Positions 1,256 through 26,726 of a DNA stretch of 26,911 nt are shown in pieces. Source of the stretch: a virus. A program made the position numbers and the translations under genes. Numbering within the stretch: position 1 is the first letter of the stretch; the number at the start of each line of letters is the position of its first letter. The stretch covers positions 1-26,911 of IMG/VR virus record IMGVR_UViG_3300035035_000013; one strand, 5' to 3'. The notes beneath the pieces are model-generated. The model searched no databases. It had not been told where the DNA came from and saw only the letters and a program-made list of their open reading frames with translations.

Positions 1256-3043
1256 CTAAGATGCTTTATATACACCAGCACCATAAATATACATATTGCT
1301 TGAATTATTTTTAATTGCGTTCCAGCTATTATTATCACGATAAAATTCAATATATGTGCTATTTGTAGAGATCATACCTGACTGATTTTGATTATTTTGA
1401 AAACAATTTGTATAACACATACCAAAAGCACCTTGTTCAGTACAAGTATAAGGTAATCCGCTTATAAGAGCGTAGTTAGCGTTTTGTACTTCCCAAGAGT
1501 GCCAATCTAAATCAAAGTAAACCATATCGCCTATTTTTGTATATGTTGCTCTTTTAGTTCCATTACTTGTCATAGTTGTAGCATACCAAGCACCGTTGTA
1601 ATAATACATAACAAATGGAGTCCAAGTACCTTCTTCATAGTCGTCAAGCAACTCGCTTGTACCTGAATTAGAAGTAGCACTAAAATCAATACCTTTTCCA
1701 GCTGTACCTATAACTAAGTTTCCAGTGCTAACAGTTACATCTTCATTTACAACTAATCTAGTACCATTAGCCTGAGCACATACTAAAGCATCTCTACCAA
1801 CAGCACCACCATTATTGTAAATACGAACACCATCTCCGTAAGTATTGTAATTTGTTATGTTTAAGGCTGCGTGTTGACTATTAGTTTTTATCATTGCAAC
1901 ACCATATTCACTACCACTGGTAGGAACTGTAGTATCACTTATACTAAATAAATCAGCTTGACCTGATGTACCTTTTATTGCGACCTTAGACTCAGGACTT
2001 GATGATCCTATACCTATATTTCCAATGTCTGTACCATGAGTTTTAACTACTAAACGTTCAGTACCACCAGAGTCTTTGATACTAATATGGTCTTGTCCAC
2101 CACCACTACCAGAAATATGGCCACCAATATTTGCAACAGCATAACCAGAACCTGATACTAAAATATTATTAGAGTTGTCAAAAATTAGAGTAGATTCACC
2201 ATTTAAAGTATCAGTAGTTCCAGTACAAGTAATTAATCTGTGGTCTGCTTGGTTGTTTATTGTTGTACCAGAAGGGATAGATTCAAACGAAGGGGACGCA
2301 TTATTGTTAGCTCGTAAAAACTTACCATTATTACTACCATTACCTGCTGGTAATTTGTCTAATGTAACTGCACTACCTGCAATTTTAGCTGAAGTTATTG
2401 CACCATCAGCAATTTTAGCTGTTGTTACTCCATTTCCTATTCCAGTTGAGTCAGCTATTTTAGATGTAGTAACTGCACCATCAACTATTTTACCATTAGT
2501 AACTGCATTATTAGCTATAGTCAAAGACGTAGATCCAGTTACATCACCAGTATGTGTAGCGTTGGTAGTCTTGGCTGTGTTTGCTGCTATAGCTGCTACA
2601 ACAGAGTTAGCTAACTTGTCGTTGTTTACGGCATCATCAGCAAGTTTTGCTGTGCTTATACTACCGTCAGCAACAGAGCCAGCTATATTAAACTGACCAG
2701 CCATACTTGCATGACTACTACACTGATAGTACAGTATGTCAGGAGAGTCGTGAGGTACAGTAAATACTATCTCTGTACCGTTACCGCCTCCATTGTTTGT
2801 AACTCCTGTGTTATACGCATCGTTAGTTCCACCATTAGCTATGCTAGTTTTGATGTAGAACGGATGTCCACCAGAGTTATTTTGAAATATGTATGTCTGC
2901 CCTCTAGTTAGGTATATAGTAGGATCATTTACCGTGCCAGTTAGACCTGGGCCAGTAAACGTATAGTCGCTAGTGCCATTAGCACCTAAGACCCACCTAA
3001 GAGAATCCTCTACACCTGTTGAGGCTATTTTAGTTAATGTCAT
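1256..3043 (-). CDS. Second tail-fibre-like protein with cupredoxin-like N-terminal domain
   Basis: This is a 595-residue probable receptor-binding or fibre protein. Residues about 25-120 resemble a plastocyanin/cupredoxin fold: a LTRGQTYIFQN strand, a GGH60PF motif, and YYQC108SSH111ASM114, giving a possible His-Cys-His-Met type-1 copper set. Residues 127-231 hold decapeptide-like repeats of the form AVTxxKIADG, shared with the large fibre. The middle is Gly/Ser/Asn-rich beta structure. The last 129 residues (from 467) begin DDYEEGTWTP and continue to YTKIGDMVYF, a C-terminal module known from many phage fibre and receptor-binding proteins. The start ATG overlaps the stop of the 103-residue gene by ATGA. 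The protein probably sits at the distal tail. Whether copper binds is untested, and the domain could be only structural. Confidence 0.88.
   Translation of the reverse strand: MTLTKIASTGVEDSLRWVLGANGTSDYTFTGPGLTGTVNDPTIYLTRGQTYIFQNNSGGHPFYIKTSIANGGTNDAYNTGVTNNGGGNGTEIVFTVPHDSPDILYYQCSSHASMAGQFNIAGSVADGSISTAKLADDAVNNDKLANSVVAAIAANTAKTTNATHTGDVTGSTSLTIANNAVTNGKIVDGAVTTSKIADSTGIGNGVTTAKIADGAITSAKIAGSAVTLDKLPAGNGSNNGKFLRANNNASPSFESIPSGTTINNQADHRLITCTGTTDTLNGESTLIFDNSNNILVSGSGYAVANIGGHISGSGGGQDHISIKDSGGTERLVVKTHGTDIGNIGIGSSSPESKVAIKGTSGQADLFSISDTTVPTSGSEYGVAMIKTNSQHAALNITNYNTYGDGVRIYNNGGAVGRDALVCAQANGTRLVVNEDVTVSTGNLVIGTAGKGIDFSATSNSGTSELLDDYEEGTWTPFVMYYYNGAWYATTMTSNGTKRATYTKIGDMVYFDLDWHSWEVQNANYALISGLPYTCTEQGAFGMCYTNCFQNNQNQSGMISTNSTYIEFYRDNNSWNAIKNNSSNMYIYGAGVYKAS
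2351..2665 (-). repeat. Degenerate decapeptide-coding repeats in second fibre gene
   Basis: These codons specify imperfect ten-residue units such as AVTNGKIVDG, AVTTSKIADS, GVTTAKIADG and AITSAKIAGS, interrupted by a spacer. The units match those in the T7-type fibre gene upstream and probably form an extended fibrous shaft. The DNA repeat period is about 30 bases but is diverged. Confidence 0.7.
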
Positions 3044-3351
3044 TCTGGTTTAGGATATTTTTTCTTAACTGGATCGACTATGTCCGTTTTCCATTTGTCT
3101 ATACCGTTGTGATATATGTAATCAAGCTGTGTACCCCAGTCTGGATACTCAGCTGCTCTGTTTCTTTGATAACGTTTACTGTTATACTCTGCTTGTAGTT
3201 TGCTTTGCTCTGCTTTAAGTGCAGCTTCAGTTGGTTTTGGTCTAGAATCAAGCCACTCTAAACCACTATATTCAGTACCTCTTAAAGTGTATATTGCATT
3301 AGGCAATAAAGAAGCTGCTGCATCACCAAGACTAAATTTAAAATCATCCAT
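3040..3351 (-). CDS. Probable tail-fibre accessory or assembly protein
   Basis: This is a 103-residue soluble protein. A helical centre (about 40-65, EAALKAEQSKLQAEYNSKR) is followed by AAEYPDWGTQLDYIYHNGIDKW. That Y-P-x-x-x-x-Q-L-D-x-I-Y-H pattern is common in small tail-associated phage proteins located next to fibre genes (tail assembly or XkdW-like families). It is linked to both neighbours: TAATG with the 163-residue gene before it and ATGA with the second fibre after it, which suggests matched stoichiometry. A chaperone or connector role for the fibre is inferred from position and motif. There is no direct evidence for either. Confidence 0.8.
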   Translation of the reverse strand: MDDFKFSLGDAAASLLPNAIYTLRGTEYSGLEWLDSRPKPTEAALKAEQSKLQAEYNSKRYQRNRAAEYPDWGTQLDYIYHNGIDKWKTDIVDPVKKKYPKPE

Positions 3352-3842
3352 TAAACTGCAATCTCCATTAATATTAACCTAGTTAGACTACCCATGTATT
3401 GACTAGGTGATCTGTTTACATACAAACTATATCCACCAGTTCCAACTTGATTAAAAACTATTTTATAAGTTACTTGGCTTGTTGTATTAGGATGATCTAT
3501 GTGCATCAAAGAGACTTCCCCATATGATGCGTTACCGTTACTACCATAGTTATTGTTATCAAAGGACGCTGCGGATACATAGTTTACAGTTTGACCATCT
3601 GAACCAACTGTTAGTCTTGAACTATCTCTATAAAGATGTACACCACAATGTTGAACATTACTCATACACCCAGTCATGCCAAATATAATAATATAGTTAG
3701 AAGTAGATTTAGGTGTAATAGCTTTAGCTAAAACGTCAAGATTCTGTGCAGTACTTTGTATAGATGTTCTTAACTCTGCGGTTTCCATTTGTACTATTCT
3801 TCCAGCACCAGAGTTAGAACCATCCCCGTAATAAATAGCCAT
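3351..3842 (-). CDS. Small virion/fibre-associated beta-rich protein
   Basis: This is a 163-residue protein starting MAIYYGDGSNSGAGRIVQ. After a short helix (about 20-40) it is mostly alternating hydrophobic strands (NYIIIFGMTG, CGVHLYRDSSRL, QVTYKIVFNQVG) and ends SLTRLILMEI. The pattern resembles the compact beta-sandwich (C1q/TNF-like) heads of phage receptor-binding proteins and recurs in cyanophage fibre clusters. It is joined to the T7-type fibre gene by TAATG, so it is translated directly after the fibre. A distal tip or receptor-binding accessory role is an inference from fold type and position. Confidence 0.82.
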   Translation of the reverse strand: MAIYYGDGSNSGAGRIVQMETAELRTSIQSTAQNLDVLAKAITPKSTSNYIIIFGMTGCMSNVQHCGVHLYRDSSRLTVGSDGQTVNYVSAASFDNNNYGSNGNASYGEVSLMHIDHPNTTSQVTYKIVFNQVGTGGYSLYVNRSPSQYMGSLTRLILMEIAV

Positions 3843-6800
3843 TATGATACCTCCGTTAAATTAAATTTATACTTTTTACCAGAACGGTTATTTTTTAAGA
3901 ACAAGTCTGATTCTCCTTCTTGGATTGTCCAGTCACCCCAAGTATTATCAACATCGTTAGATGAACCTTCGTTAGATAAATGAAGGTCATTGGTGTAAAC
4001 GTTTCTCCAACGAGAACCAGATGAACCTAAATCTAACGAGTTATTAGCATTTGGTAATACATGGTTATTAAATTCAATACTGGCACTGTGAAATTTTATA
4101 AAGTGACCACCTGACGCATCAGAGTAAATGGTTGGTGTTCCATCACTCCAAGTACCCACAAAGGCATCTCTGTTTCCATCTCTTCCGTAGAAACCGATAT
4201 AACTCCAATCGTCAGCATTATTTGATGGAACAGCTAACCTTAATCTTTCATCAGTGTCTGCTTGACAACGTAGTTGACCGTTAATATGACTTATATCTGC
4301 TCCGGCAGTACTCAAACCTCCTGTAACAGTGACTCCCGCACTGGTTGTCTCAAACTTTTTACTGTTGTTGTGATATAGTTCTACGGCTCCGTCAGATTTA
4401 AATTTAGCTAAAGTTTCTTTGCTTGATGCAGTTGAATCTGTAGTGTTTCCATATAAAACAATATCACCACCTGTGTACATACCAAGTTCATCTGCTGCCA
4501 TACCAAAGCCAGCTTTCCAACCACTATCGTTGTGTAAAACAATTTTATTTGGCCCTTGAGCATTTTGGTTATAACTAGCATCAAATACTATTTTTTCCCA
4601 TGCGTCATTGTCCCAGTTTGTGTTTACGTTAGTGCCAGCACCTTGTAGTAAAGCGTTGTTGCCATTAAAATCTAAGTCACCGCCTAGCTGTGGTGATGTG
4701 TCAGATACAACGTCAGTAGTAATGTTACCAACTGTTGTGTTAAGAGCAGCTATATCTACACCGTCAACTGTTCCTGATACTGTGATGTTTCCTGTTACGT
4801 CAAGACCAGAACTAACGTCTAGGTTTCCACTAAACACACCAGTTCCATTATTTAGTATTCTAAATCTAGTTGCACCATTAGTATCATCGTAAATTGTATA
4901 TGCACCATTATTGTTTATGATGGAATAATCAGAATTACTATCTGTATCAGTTAAAAATATACGAGGATAAGAATTTTCAATTTTTATACCATTAGTACCA
5001 TTTACAATAACATTGCCTGTAAACTCACCCCCTGCACCAGTTATAGTCTGAGCTCCAAATACTGGAGAAATCTTTGTACCAGCTATTGCTGCACTTGCGT
5101 TTATGTCAGCGTTGACAATAGTCCCATCTACTATATGTGCAGATGTTACTGAACTATCAGCTATCTTATTTCCGTTAACTGCATCGTCTGCAATCTTAGA
5201 ATTTATAACTGATCCGTTTTGTAGTATGGCTGATGTAACTGTGTTGTCACTTGGTGTACCTATTCCGACTGTTGATCCGATAACAGTAACGAACATACTA
5301 GCACCGTTAGCAGGGGCAGACCCAAAGATAATGTCGTTGCCAACAAGAACGAATCCCTCGCTTGGCTGGCTCGATCCAGCGTTAGGTTTTTGAATGACTC
5401 CATCGACACTAACAAGAAGTTGCTGTGCATCAGTTGGTGCATTGCTAATTGTAAATCTATAAGCTGTTCCATTTGCTGTTGCACTGCCTCCACCTGTACT
5501 AGATGAGCTAGATATTGTAGATATAAAAAAGTTACCAATCGCAGATGACTCTTCCCAAGCAGAGTTCTGACTAGAGTAAACCATAAGTTTACTGTTAGTT
5601 GTGTCGTACCATAAGTCACCACCGTCTAAAGAAGATGTAGGTGCAGAGGCTGACACTCTGTATCTGTTTGAGAATGAGTTAACTGTCGCACTAATAGCCT
5701 GTATATCGGCTGCACTAGCTAACTGTTTGTGAAATGTATATGTGTGTAATGTTGATGTTGTTTGTACCTGTAAACCGCTGCTTGCTGGTAATGTCTGACT
5801 ATGCAATGAGCTAGGAAATCCAGTTATAGTTACAGTGTTACCTGTACCAGCACCGTTTGTTATAGTTGCTACACCACTACTATTAACTGCAAGACCGCTT
5901 GCAAGCTGTGATATAGATACAACTGTACCAGCATTGTTACTTGGGTCAGGGTTAGCTGTAGGAAAGCTAGTCTCGTTTGCTATAGCTACAAAACCACCAA
6001 GAGCGTTTGTTACAGACAATACAAGATCGTTTACAGCCTTAGATGTAGGTATACGTGTGTCACTGTTTGTAGTAACAGAAGTTTCAAGTGTTATACCGTC
6101 AAGCTGGTTTAGTTCTGCCGTAGAAGCTGTAAGAGCTGTGCTATCAGCTAAAACTGAAGCTGTACCAGACTGCATACCAGCTAGTGTTGTAAGCTCACCG
6201 TCAGCTATCTTGTCAGTTGTAACTGAGTTAGCAGCTAGTGCAGCTGATAAAATTTCACCGTCAGCTATTTTATCTCTAGTAATAGCATCGTTGTTTATCT
6301 TAGCTGTAGTAATATTATTATCAGGTATTTTTGTTGTAGTAACAGCGTTGTCAGCTATTTTATCAGTTGTAACAGCGTTGTTTTTTATATGGTTAGTGCC
6401 TACTGCTCTTAAATTATTATCAGACGAAGAATTAGATAATTCTCCATCTCCAATAGCATTAGAAGCTATTTGAGCTGCTGTTATTGTGTCATTTTCAATC
6501 TTAGTAGCAGTTATAACTCGAGTGCCAAGCTGTGCTGTACTAACTGCACTATCTGCTATTTTGTCGTTAGTAACTGCATCATTTGCTATTTTCGCAGTTG
6601 TTACCGACCCATCTGCTATATCTCCAGTAACTATAGTACCGTCTGCTAGTTTTGCAGAGGTAATAGCACTGTCAGCTATGTCTGCTGTAGCTATACTGCC
6701 ATCTATAATTTTAGCACTGGTAACAAATGGTTGTGCTACACCATCAATAGTAGGTTGTACGCCACCAAATATAGATCCTTCTAAATCTAGTGCTTTGTTT

Positions 6801-7237
6801 CTAGCATCCTGTGCTGTAAAGTTAGATTCAGTAGATGAGTTGTTTAAATCTGTAGCTCTTATTGTACTACCACTAGCAAAGCTAGTATATGCACTGTCTG
6901 CATCTCTTGTTCTACGCTCACAAAAAACTACTGCTCCTTGAGGTAGTGCAGAGTTAAATGTAATTGTATTGTTATCGCTGGATAGTGTGTAGTTGTATAA
7001 AGTTGTACCTGCTGAAACTGCAGGAAAGTATAATCCGTCTGTGTTGTTCACCTGTGGGTGACTAGACTGTGCAGTACTACCAGTAGACTGGCGTAGCTGT
7101 AGCACTCTAGTACCACCCGACAATGTGACATAAACATCTAGATCATCTTGGTTATTCAGTTGTATACTGACAGGACTAAATACTGTTGTAGTAGCATTAG
7201 TCGTGGCAGGAAAAGTTTTTTTAGTTGTAACTGCCAT
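3842..7237 (-). CDS. T7-type tail fibre protein
   Basis: This is a 1131-residue fibre. Residues 1-155 match the T7 gp17 N-terminal domain that anchors the fibre to the tail (FSPVSIQLNNQDDLDVYVTL, with ATDLNNSSTESNFTAQDARN near 128-147). Residues 171-350 are decapeptide repeats. Residues about 580-660 form a beta domain (QQLLVSVDGVIQKPN, GNDIIFGSAPANG) seen in other cyanophage fibres, followed by more repeats (665-715). A PQLGGDLDFNGN stretch (849-860) leads to the C-terminal part. The end (about 1065-1131) carries SLDLGSSGSRWRNVYTNDLH and WTIQEGESDLFLKNN, a widespread cyanophage fibre ending. No internal peptidase-type chaperone is seen. It begins 12 nt after the gp16-like stop, with no good Shine-Dalgarno, and ends TAATG into the next gene. 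Confidence 0.95.
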   Translation of the reverse strand: MAVTTKKTFPATTNATTTVFSPVSIQLNNQDDLDVYVTLSGGTRVLQLRQSTGSTAQSSHPQVNNTDGLYFPAVSAGTTLYNYTLSSDNNTITFNSALPQGAVVFCERRTRDADSAYTSFASGSTIRATDLNNSSTESNFTAQDARNKALDLEGSIFGGVQPTIDGVAQPFVTSAKIIDGSIATADIADSAITSAKLADGTIVTGDIADGSVTTAKIANDAVTNDKIADSAVSTAQLGTRVITATKIENDTITAAQIASNAIGDGELSNSSSDNNLRAVGTNHIKNNAVTTDKIADNAVTTTKIPDNNITTAKINNDAITRDKIADGEILSAALAANSVTTDKIADGELTTLAGMQSGTASVLADSTALTASTAELNQLDGITLETSVTTNSDTRIPTSKAVNDLVLSVTNALGGFVAIANETSFPTANPDPSNNAGTVVSISQLASGLAVNSSGVATITNGAGTGNTVTITGFPSSLHSQTLPASSGLQVQTTSTLHTYTFHKQLASAADIQAISATVNSFSNRYRVSASAPTSSLDGGDLWYDTTNSKLMVYSSQNSAWEESSAIGNFFISTISSSSSTGGGSATANGTAYRFTISNAPTDAQQLLVSVDGVIQKPNAGSSQPSEGFVLVGNDIIFGSAPANGASMFVTVIGSTVGIGTPSDNTVTSAILQNGSVINSKIADDAVNGNKIADSSVTSAHIVDGTIVNADINASAAIAGTKISPVFGAQTITGAGGEFTGNVIVNGTNGIKIENSYPRIFLTDTDSNSDYSIINNNGAYTIYDDTNGATRFRILNNGTGVFSGNLDVSSGLDVTGNITVSGTVDGVDIAALNTTVGNITTDVVSDTSPQLGGDLDFNGNNALLQGAGTNVNTNWDNDAWEKIVFDASYNQNAQGPNKIVLHNDSGWKAGFGMAADELGMYTGGDIVLYGNTTDSTASSKETLAKFKSDGAVELYHNNSKKFETTSAGVTVTGGLSTAGADISHINGQLRCQADTDERLRLAVPSNNADDWSYIGFYGRDGNRDAFVGTWSDGTPTIYSDASGGHFIKFHSASIEFNNHVLPNANNSLDLGSSGSRWRNVYTNDLHLSNEGSSNDVDNTWGDWTIQEGESDLFLKNNRSGKKYKFNLTEVS
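5078..5245 (-). repeat. Second block of decapeptide-coding repeats in T7-type fibre
   Basis: This encodes residues about 665-720, with ten-residue units such as SVINSKIADD, AVNGNKIADS and SVTSAHIVDG. They are the same family as the larger upstream block and lie just after the QQLLVSVDGVIQ beta domain. Confidence 0.65.
6188..6727 (-). repeat. Main decapeptide-coding repeat array of T7-type fibre
   Basis: This encodes residues about 171-350, in near-perfect ten-residue register: AITSAKLADG, TIVTGDIADG, SVTTAKIAND, AVTNDKIADS, then AVTTDKIADN, AVTTTKIPDN, NITTAKINND, AITRDKIADG and SVTTDKIADG. A divergent stretch near 260-288 interrupts it. The units fit a trimeric beta or coiled shaft. The ~30-base DNA period makes slippage or recombination with the second fibre gene possible. 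Confidence 0.8.
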
Positions 7238-25858: not shown

Positions 25859-26041
25859 TTATTCTCCTTTGAGTTTTTCTTTTAGTATACGTATTATTGA
25901 TAATTGACCAGCTCTATAAGATATTTCTTTCTCCGATAGGGTGTGGTCTGGAAACTTGTCTGGGAACTGTTCATCTAGTTCATCAACGATGAGTTGGATG
26001 CGTCCCCAATCAAGCGTACTTGGGTAAATTGGTGTTTGCAT
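25859..26041 (-). CDS. 60-residue unknown protein after RNR beta
   Basis: I choose ATG 26041 (MQTPIYPSTLDWGRIQLIVD). The longer frame begins with TTG at 26083 and would overlap the RNR beta gene more deeply. The protein has an acidic middle (DELDEQFPDKFPDH) and a C-terminal helix (EISYRAGQLSIIRILKEKL). The 32-nt overlap with the upstream gene suggests coupling. No motif is recognised. A small cyanophage accessory protein is the best description. Confidence 0.7.
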   Translation of the reverse strand: MQTPIYPSTLDWGRIQLIVDELDEQFPDKFPDHTLSEKEISYRAGQLSIIRILKEKLKGE

Positions 26042-26726
26042 GTTCAAAAAATGCGGGCATGCGGGCTCGCTTTGTATCGGCAAGCTGTGGAGCTTTACCT
26101 TCGTACATTAGACGGTCACTTGAATCCGTCCAAAATTTTCTGCTTAGATATTTGTTAGGTGCTATGTCAGCCAATGGTTCAAAGATCCAATTAATTGTAG
26201 CTTTCCTAAGTTTGTCCAAAGAAGAGCTAGGGCGTAGACCCATATCAGCACAAACCAAACTGTTGCAAGCGACATGAATTTGCTCATCTCTGGAAATATC
26301 AGCCGATACTGTCCTAAGAGCAGCATCGCCACAAAAGCGATTGAAAGGTAAAATAACAAAGAATACAGCACGTTCTGCTACCAAGGCTTTTAGTATAGTG
26401 TGGTCAGGGTGAGCTATCCACGCATCACGTAGTAGCTTTGCCTCTTTCTCAGCTTTGGCATCTAGTCCGTGGACATCAGCAACGTAGCCAAGAGCTAGGT
26501 CATGTCTCTCCTCGTCCTTTACGTTTGATTCGAGCAGTACTCTAGCAGTATCGGGAACCTCTTTGCTAAGGGTTTCCGTAATAAAGGAACCAACAGGAAG
26601 CTCCATATGCCGTACTGCAAGAGCACGGTAGATGGCTTCTTCACTTCCTTCCATGAGTTTTCCTTTCGTGGGCTTAACGGGAGTCCACTTTCTTTTCCTG
26701 TGTAATAACTTATCATAAGGGTTCAT
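26010..26726 (-). CDS. nrdB: Ferritin-like di-iron protein, probable class I RNR beta subunit
   Basis: This is a 238-residue helical protein with two ExxH pairs, E72-E-R-H75 (KDEERHDLALGY) and E148-Q-I-H151 (RDEQIHVACN). Candidate bridging carboxylates are E30 or E42 and E119. This is the ferritin/R2 four-helix metal site. The preceding gene ends like an RNR alpha tail, so it is most likely the beta subunit that generates the radical for deoxynucleotide synthesis. It is short for NrdB (usually over 320 residues). The residue four after H75 is Leu79, where class Ia enzymes have the radical Tyr. Cyanopodovirus RNRs, once called class II, have been reassigned to class I with a beta of this kind. 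A different ferritin-like oxidase is the alternative. The start overlaps the alpha stop by ATGA. Confidence 0.75.
   Translation of the reverse strand: MNPYDKLLHRKRKWTPVKPTKGKLMEGSEEAIYRALAVRHMELPVGSFITETLSKEVPDTARVLLESNVKDEERHDLALGYVADVHGLDAKAEKEAKLLRDAWIAHPDHTILKALVAERAVFFVILPFNRFCGDAALRTVSADISRDEQIHVACNSLVCADMGLRPSSSLDKLRKATINWIFEPLADIAPNKYLSRKFWTDSSDRLMYEGKAPQLADTKRARMPAFFEHANTNLPKYA

Follow-up and report, generated by a model that had tools for sequence, protein, structure and literature searches.

A predicted type-1-copper-like cupredoxin domain in tail-fibre proteins of marine cyanophages

The window, by which we mean the whole stretch of DNA analysed, was a 26,911-base virus record. 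Its gene order ran from a portal-like head-tail adaptor through the scaffold, major head protein, tail proteins, and internal virion proteins to a T7 gp17-like fibre, small fibre genes, and then a gene for a second fibre protein of 595 amino acids, and this order is of the T7-like cyanopodovirus type. The nearest named relatives were the Prochlorococcus phages P-GSP1 and P-SCSP2, and the fibre genes of P-GSP1 stood in the same order as those of the window, including a gene for a 103-amino-acid protein before the gene for the second fibre protein. A ribonucleotide reductase gene lay at the window edge (Table 1).

The 595-amino-acid protein matched PHROG 892 (tail fibre, E 7e-38) and PHROG 677 (baseplate wedge tail fibre connector, E 5e-35). 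These matches, and neighbours that included the gp17-like fibre and the internal virion and tail genes upstream, identified it as a member of a tail-fibre family located in the tail gene block. It had no evident signal sequence, and its gene was within the phage structural operon. The shaft of the protein contained repeats of the DGAITSAKIAD kind and was followed by a C-terminal globular region. The minus-strand reading frame contained TYIFQNNSGGH60PFYIK and, farther on, DILYYQC108SSH111ASM114AGQFNI. A sequence-only reading of this DNA had singled out GGH60PF and YYQC108SSH111ASM114 in the second fibre protein as parts of a possible copper site in a plastocyanin-like domain at residues 25–120 (2684–2971); both motifs were present exactly as described and the mapping was right, the conserved domain being slightly larger (residues ~14–122).

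Table 1. Positions of the fibre genes, the predicted domain, and its putative metal ligands in the window
Feature	Position	Strand	Basis or remark
Second tail-fibre-like protein, 595 aa	1256..3043	minus	ORF calling; predicted cupredoxin domain N-terminal
Predicted cupredoxin (type-1-copper-like) domain, residues ~14–122	2678..3004	minus	AF2, Foldseek, profile
Met114, putative axial ligand	2702..2704	minus	Codon ATG; invariant in 164 metal-type copies; kept in ligand-lost clade
His111, putative second His ligand	2711..2713	minus	Codon CAT; invariant in 164 metal-type copies; CAC/CAT 64/100
Cys108, putative thiolate ligand, only Cys of the domain	2720..2722	minus	Codon TGT; invariant in 164 metal-type copies; TGT/TGC 113/51
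His60, putative first ligand, in GGHPF	2864..2866	minus	Codon CAT; invariant in 164 metal-type copies; CAT/CAC 92/70
Small protein, 103 aa, overlapping the start of the domain-bearing gene	3040..3351	minus	PHROG 9114, E 1.7e-24
Small tail-fibre-related protein, 163 aa, between the two fibres	3351..3842	minus	PHROG 6942 tail fibre, E 2.5e-9
T7 gp17-like main tail fibre, 1131 aa, upstream neighbour	3842..7237	minus	Pfam Phage_T7_tail, E 2e-6; PHROG tail fibre families
Ribonucleotide reductase, class Ia beta subunit	26010..26726	minus	PHROG 6799, E 1e-129

An alignment of the window domain with 50 relatives from other loci (51 sequences) was used for AlphaFold2 (AF2) and for the profile. The AF2 model of the domain, which is approximately 105 residues long, had a pLDDT of 95.1 and a pTM of 0.88; its strand order was that of cupredoxins with the ligand loop between the last two strands, and the predicted structure is a Greek-key beta-sandwich of cupredoxin topology. 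In a Foldseek search of the PDB with this model, all 50 matches listed were cupredoxin-fold proteins, nearly all of them copper proteins, and the 25 listed matches at E <= 1e-3 were without exception cupredoxin-fold copper proteins; the matches included rusticyanin (6.6e-5), AcoP, plastocyanin (7.9e-4), copper nitrite reductase, and multicopper oxidases. The TM-scores against solved cupredoxins were modest (~0.4–0.6), indicating that the phage domain is a divergent cupredoxin. When the sequence profile was compared with the PDB, copper nitrite reductases ranked at the top (6.1e-5, 6.9e-5, and 3.5e-4), followed by amicyanin, pseudoazurin, and plastocyanin, and in these alignments the loop residues Cys, His, and Met were in register. 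Among the 51 relatives, 17 matched the amicyanin family of NCBIfam (TIGR02657; best 2.6e-6) and 19 matched Pfam Copper-bind (PF00127; best 4.1e-5). The window member alone fell below the Pfam and NCBIfam cut-offs, and phmmer of the single sequence against the PDB returned no cupredoxin fold, with immunoglobulin light chains at E 0.1–1. Because such single-sequence searches carried no fold signal, the fold assignment rests on the profiles and the structure. The domain profile (A2) matched the window domain at E 1e-47, and this was the sole copy within the window.

The four putative ligands, His60, Cys108, His111, and the axial Met114, occurred in the canonical type-1 copper order. Strand order and the alignment to copper proteins, the two guides to their position, suggested that they are placed as a type-1 site requires. 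The spacing C-x2-H-x2-M had been described from the sequence as tighter than that of plastocyanin, and in this respect the description held; the spacing was not unusual, however, since the same loop occurs in amicyanin (CTPHPFM, checked against PDB 1aac) and in copper nitrite reductase domains (CTLHPWM), compared with CSSHASM in the phage protein, and it is therefore ordinary for a loop of the amicyanin kind. The residue following His60 was Pro. Small blue copper proteins usually have Asn after the first His ligand, and multicopper oxidases have HPF or HPxH at this position; with Pro instead of Asn, a backbone hydrogen bond to the Cys sulphur would be absent.

In composition shuffles of the protein, the pattern H-x40-60-C-x2-H-x2-M arose in 7 of 20000 cases. 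The four ligands were among only seven invariant columns of the 51-sequence alignment (hypergeometric 7e-6), a value that is optimistic because some rows had been fetched with a pattern holding the Cys and the second His. Sets fetched without these letters agreed: all 55 full copies found through the N-terminal half only kept the ligands, as did 60 of 60 full copies in the set obtained with the window as query (one of the six patterns held Met114), and among isolate phages 14 of 15 full copies did so. When 195 distinct full-length copies were compared, 164 had His-Cys-His-Met and 31 had lost the ligands, with no copy carrying a partial set, and relatives down to ~30% identity kept all four. 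Synonymous codons varied freely at His60, Cys108, and His111 in the metal-type copies (Table 1), indicating that the residues and not the DNA were held constant. The sequence-only reading had named poor conservation of the ligands in homologues as a result that would count against it, and the ligands proved to be conserved; together with AF2 and the fold and profile matches, this supported its proposal that a tail-fibre protein bears a cupredoxin fold in which the type-1 copper ligands are complete. The copy in S-SKS1 (L332:2501-2821) had two extra loop residues, giving C-x4-H-x2-M, and kept all four ligands.

Amicyanin, the best curated family for the relatives, shared with the phage domain the fold and the C-x2-H-x2-M loop in register. 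Amicyanin is a free periplasmic electron carrier, a single secreted domain partnering methylamine dehydrogenase, whereas the phage domain was the N-terminal domain of a 595-amino-acid fibre protein, a predicted virion structural protein, and differed also in the Pro after His60 and in the middle region. The copper nitrite reductase and multicopper oxidase cupredoxin domains gave the top profile matches and also fold matches, and the HPF of the phage domain resembled the type-1 sites of multicopper oxidases; these proteins are enzymes with further copper sites, whereas none was seen in the phage domain. Plastocyanin (PF00127; PetE of cyanophages and hosts) had the same fold and the same four ligand types, but its profile matches were weak and its loop is C-x2-H-x4-M, and the phage domain was not assigned to it. 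As the closest relative, plastocyanin was rejected, since hhalign favoured amicyanin (9e-5, Prob 59) over plastocyanin (1.9e-3, Prob 14) and the loop length differed, which makes an origin of the domain from cyanophage petE unlikely. The petE gene of cyanophages is a separate auxiliary metabolic gene (PMC3037559).

By tblastn, the domain was found in 333 phage records, essentially all of cyanophages, so it was not peculiar to the window phage. The records were named Synechococcus, Prochlorococcus, or cyanophage, except for three 'Marine' virus records; the only one of these to be listed came from a single amplified cell. The YTFTG subfamily occurred in cyanophages only. In most T4-like cyanophages the domain formed the last ~105 residues of ~410-amino-acid proteins annotated as gp9, the long-fibre socket. 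The gp9 of T4 itself is a 31 kDa protein (PMC3004832), and the domain in the cyanophage proteins is an extra C-terminal end. In P-SSM2 and S-SCSM1 the domain lay near the N-terminus of the proximal long-fibre protein, and in the T7-like phages, namely the window phage, P-SCSP2, and P-GSP1, it was the N-terminus of the second fibre protein. To our knowledge, T4 gp9 bears no cupredoxin. The C-terminal end of gp9 and the N-terminus of a fibre would put the domain on either side of the same tail-fibre joint, a placement argued from gene products and not from a solved virion; in the cryo-EM structure of the cyanopodovirus P-SCSP1u, the main fibre was resolved at its N-termini only. From these sequences, a type-1-copper-like domain of the virion is predicted, lying in most cases at the joint between tail and fibre and not at the receptor-binding tip.

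Further divergent cupredoxin-like copies occurred in the gp7 baseplate wedge of cyanomyoviruses (L171:2898-3194, L170:3974-4234, L178:2923-3195, and L329:2201-2920), and gp7 of P-HM2 had two copies in tandem, the first without ligands. A His-Cys-His-Met copy was also present in cyanophage virion proteins annotated as S8 peptidase or hypothetical (L177, L176, and L086:4578-6989). The copies in gp7 wedges, in S8-protease-like proteins, and at mid-protein positions in fibres indicated that the joint location is common but not universal. Divergent His-Cys-His-Met domains were seen in fibre or nearby proteins of the SAR11 phages Mosig and Baldr, the Methylophilales phage Melnitz-2, and the actinobacterium phage DSL-LC01 (L327, L328, L330, and L334).

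The 31 distinct ligand-lost copies had F-[A/S]-[T/V/I]-M in place of H-C-H-M, the Met being retained. They belonged to fibre proteins of T4-like cyanophages (L180–L233, for example L198:1944-2282), including S-B05, S-B43, RN05-S, and RB11-B. In the tree they formed one clade (support 99/95) adjoining copies with all four ligands; repeated independent losses were rejected, as the tree needs one loss only. The best AF2 model of a ligand-lost copy had a pLDDT of 80 and the other four models were poor, and the predicted fold was still a cupredoxin, with rusticyanin and copper nitrite reductase among its Foldseek PDB matches at E < 1e-3. The existence of one clade without the ligands indicated that in this clade the fold can do without a metal, and the clade is a natural metal-free control.

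Sequence and structure prediction gave the fold, a complete set of ligands that is strictly conserved and lost all-or-none, and a place by the joint in the gene products examined. These findings are probably best explained by a cupredoxin domain whose type-1 copper site is intact and under selection, situated at the tail-fibre junction, where it would act as a metal pin. Three residues far apart in the sequence behaved in an all-or-none manner, as expected of a metal site; the axial Met and the amicyanin loop pointed to type-1 copper. On these grounds, it is likely that the domain binds copper, and we consider it reasonably probable that in the T4-like group the domain belongs to the structure of the tail-fibre joint; that this structural element is stiffened or locked by the metal is a tentative proposal. 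In the occupancy and function that we infer, one copper ion would be held per chain and would tie the His60 strand to the Cys/His/Met loop, and this metal pin may stiffen or lock a small beta-sandwich at the hinge that holds the fibre. More speculatively, the oxidation state or occupancy of the copper may alter the stiffness of the joint or help to protect the thiolate; such a redox-responsive step was proposed because a type-1 site, rather than a generic metal site, was kept, and redox control of the joint is no more than possible. Several points weigh against the metal-pin explanation: the TM-scores were modest, Pro follows His60, one clade does without the ligands, and some copies lie off the joint. 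Virion assembly also takes place in the cytoplasm of the host, a compartment kept low in free copper, which counts against copper.

The site might be real and yet hold zinc, iron, or another metal, or copper only as Cu(I), the ion having a purely structural function with no redox role and no blue copper. Ligand sets of Cys/His/His/Met can hold other soft metals. A virion metal site of another kind is known in T4 gp37, with iron bound through HxH motifs (PMC11705849). We regard this alternative as rather improbable, since an axial Met and the exact amicyanin loop in a cupredoxin fold are specific to type-1 copper proteins and the top profile and fold matches of the phage domain were copper proteins. 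It is less probable still that the fold is only a protein-protein or adhesion module whose ligand residues are remnants of an ancestral site, retained for their packing. Some cupredoxin folds, such as those of the ephrins, serve in binding without copper, and the ligand-lost clade kept the fold; remnants would however be expected to decay one residue at a time, whereas no copy had one or two ligands replaced and relatives down to ~30% identity kept all four.

The sequence-only reading had offered three roles for a redox-metal domain on an adhesin, structural, sensing of oxidation, and binding of a copper-related surface receptor, and the last was the least supported. A 'Trojan horse' domain, its copper offered to a copper-uptake or copper-protein receptor at the surface of the cyanobacterial host, would parallel the iron hypothesis for phage tails (PMC11705849) and would suit the restriction of the YTFTG subfamily to cyanophages. 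We consider it very unlikely, since the domain adjoins the tail (gp9 and fibre N-termini) and is not placed like a receptor-binding tip, which disfavours receptor capture through copper, and since divergent relatives were also seen in phages that infect SAR11, Methylophilales, and an actinobacterium, hosts whose receptors differ. Finally, trimeric fibres can carry interchain disulfides, but that Cys108 forms disulfides, with His and Met conserved on other structural grounds, is extremely improbable, because an intradomain disulfide is precluded by the single Cys per domain in 162 of 164 metal-type copies and it would be left unexplained why His, Cys, and His are invariant together and lost together.

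The fold and the site are known, and a conserved type-1-copper-like domain as a standard part of the cyanophage virion appears to be undescribed in the open-access literature, in which we found no description of a cupredoxin, plastocyanin-like, or copper-binding domain in a phage tail, a baseplate, or a cyanophage, an absence that is only suggestive. The nearest prior idea is that of iron held by HxH motifs in phage fibres: the tip of the T4 long fibre, gp37, holds seven iron ions through such motifs, and the motifs have been proposed for marine phages including cyanophages (PMC11705849). The HxH fibres (T4 gp37 and that of the alterophage R22Y) likewise have a metal inside a fibre protein and a proposed importance for ocean metal chemistry (PMC11705849), but their motifs are short shaft motifs with iron, whereas the phage cupredoxin is a complete redox-protein domain with a Cys/Met site.

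The recurrence of the domain, with its four putative ligands, by the tail-fibre joint in hundreds of related phages suggests that these virus particles may carry copper. If the copper in virions were stoichiometric and lay at a joint that moves, a metalloprotein would have a part in phage mechanics that we did not find described, and this could couple infection to copper or oxidation and form a copper counterpart to the hypothesis of iron in phage tails. The broadest reading would be that most marine T4-like and some T7-like cyanophages carry dozens of redox-active blue copper centres at their tail-fibre hinges, six gp9 trimers alone giving 18 if gp9 is trimeric as in T4, with redox state or copper loading controlling fibre deployment or virion stability and with cyanophages as a copper-carrying class of particle in the ocean; this reading is doubtful. 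Cyanophages belong to the most abundant viruses of the sea. The copper question is directly testable, the domain being small, its ligands known, and phages that carry it in culture.

The only clear cellular relative found was a 154-amino-acid lipoprotein of Marinifilum with a His-Cys-His-Met domain, encoded between housekeeping genes (L090:3770-4234). Other bacterial matches were rejected as cellular homologues at least for L086, L094, and L095, in which the domain was set among phage genes. These three loci, filed under bacterial MAGs or SAGs, were phage-like and all had fibre genes, and L086 also had major-capsid-like and heme-oxygenase-like genes.
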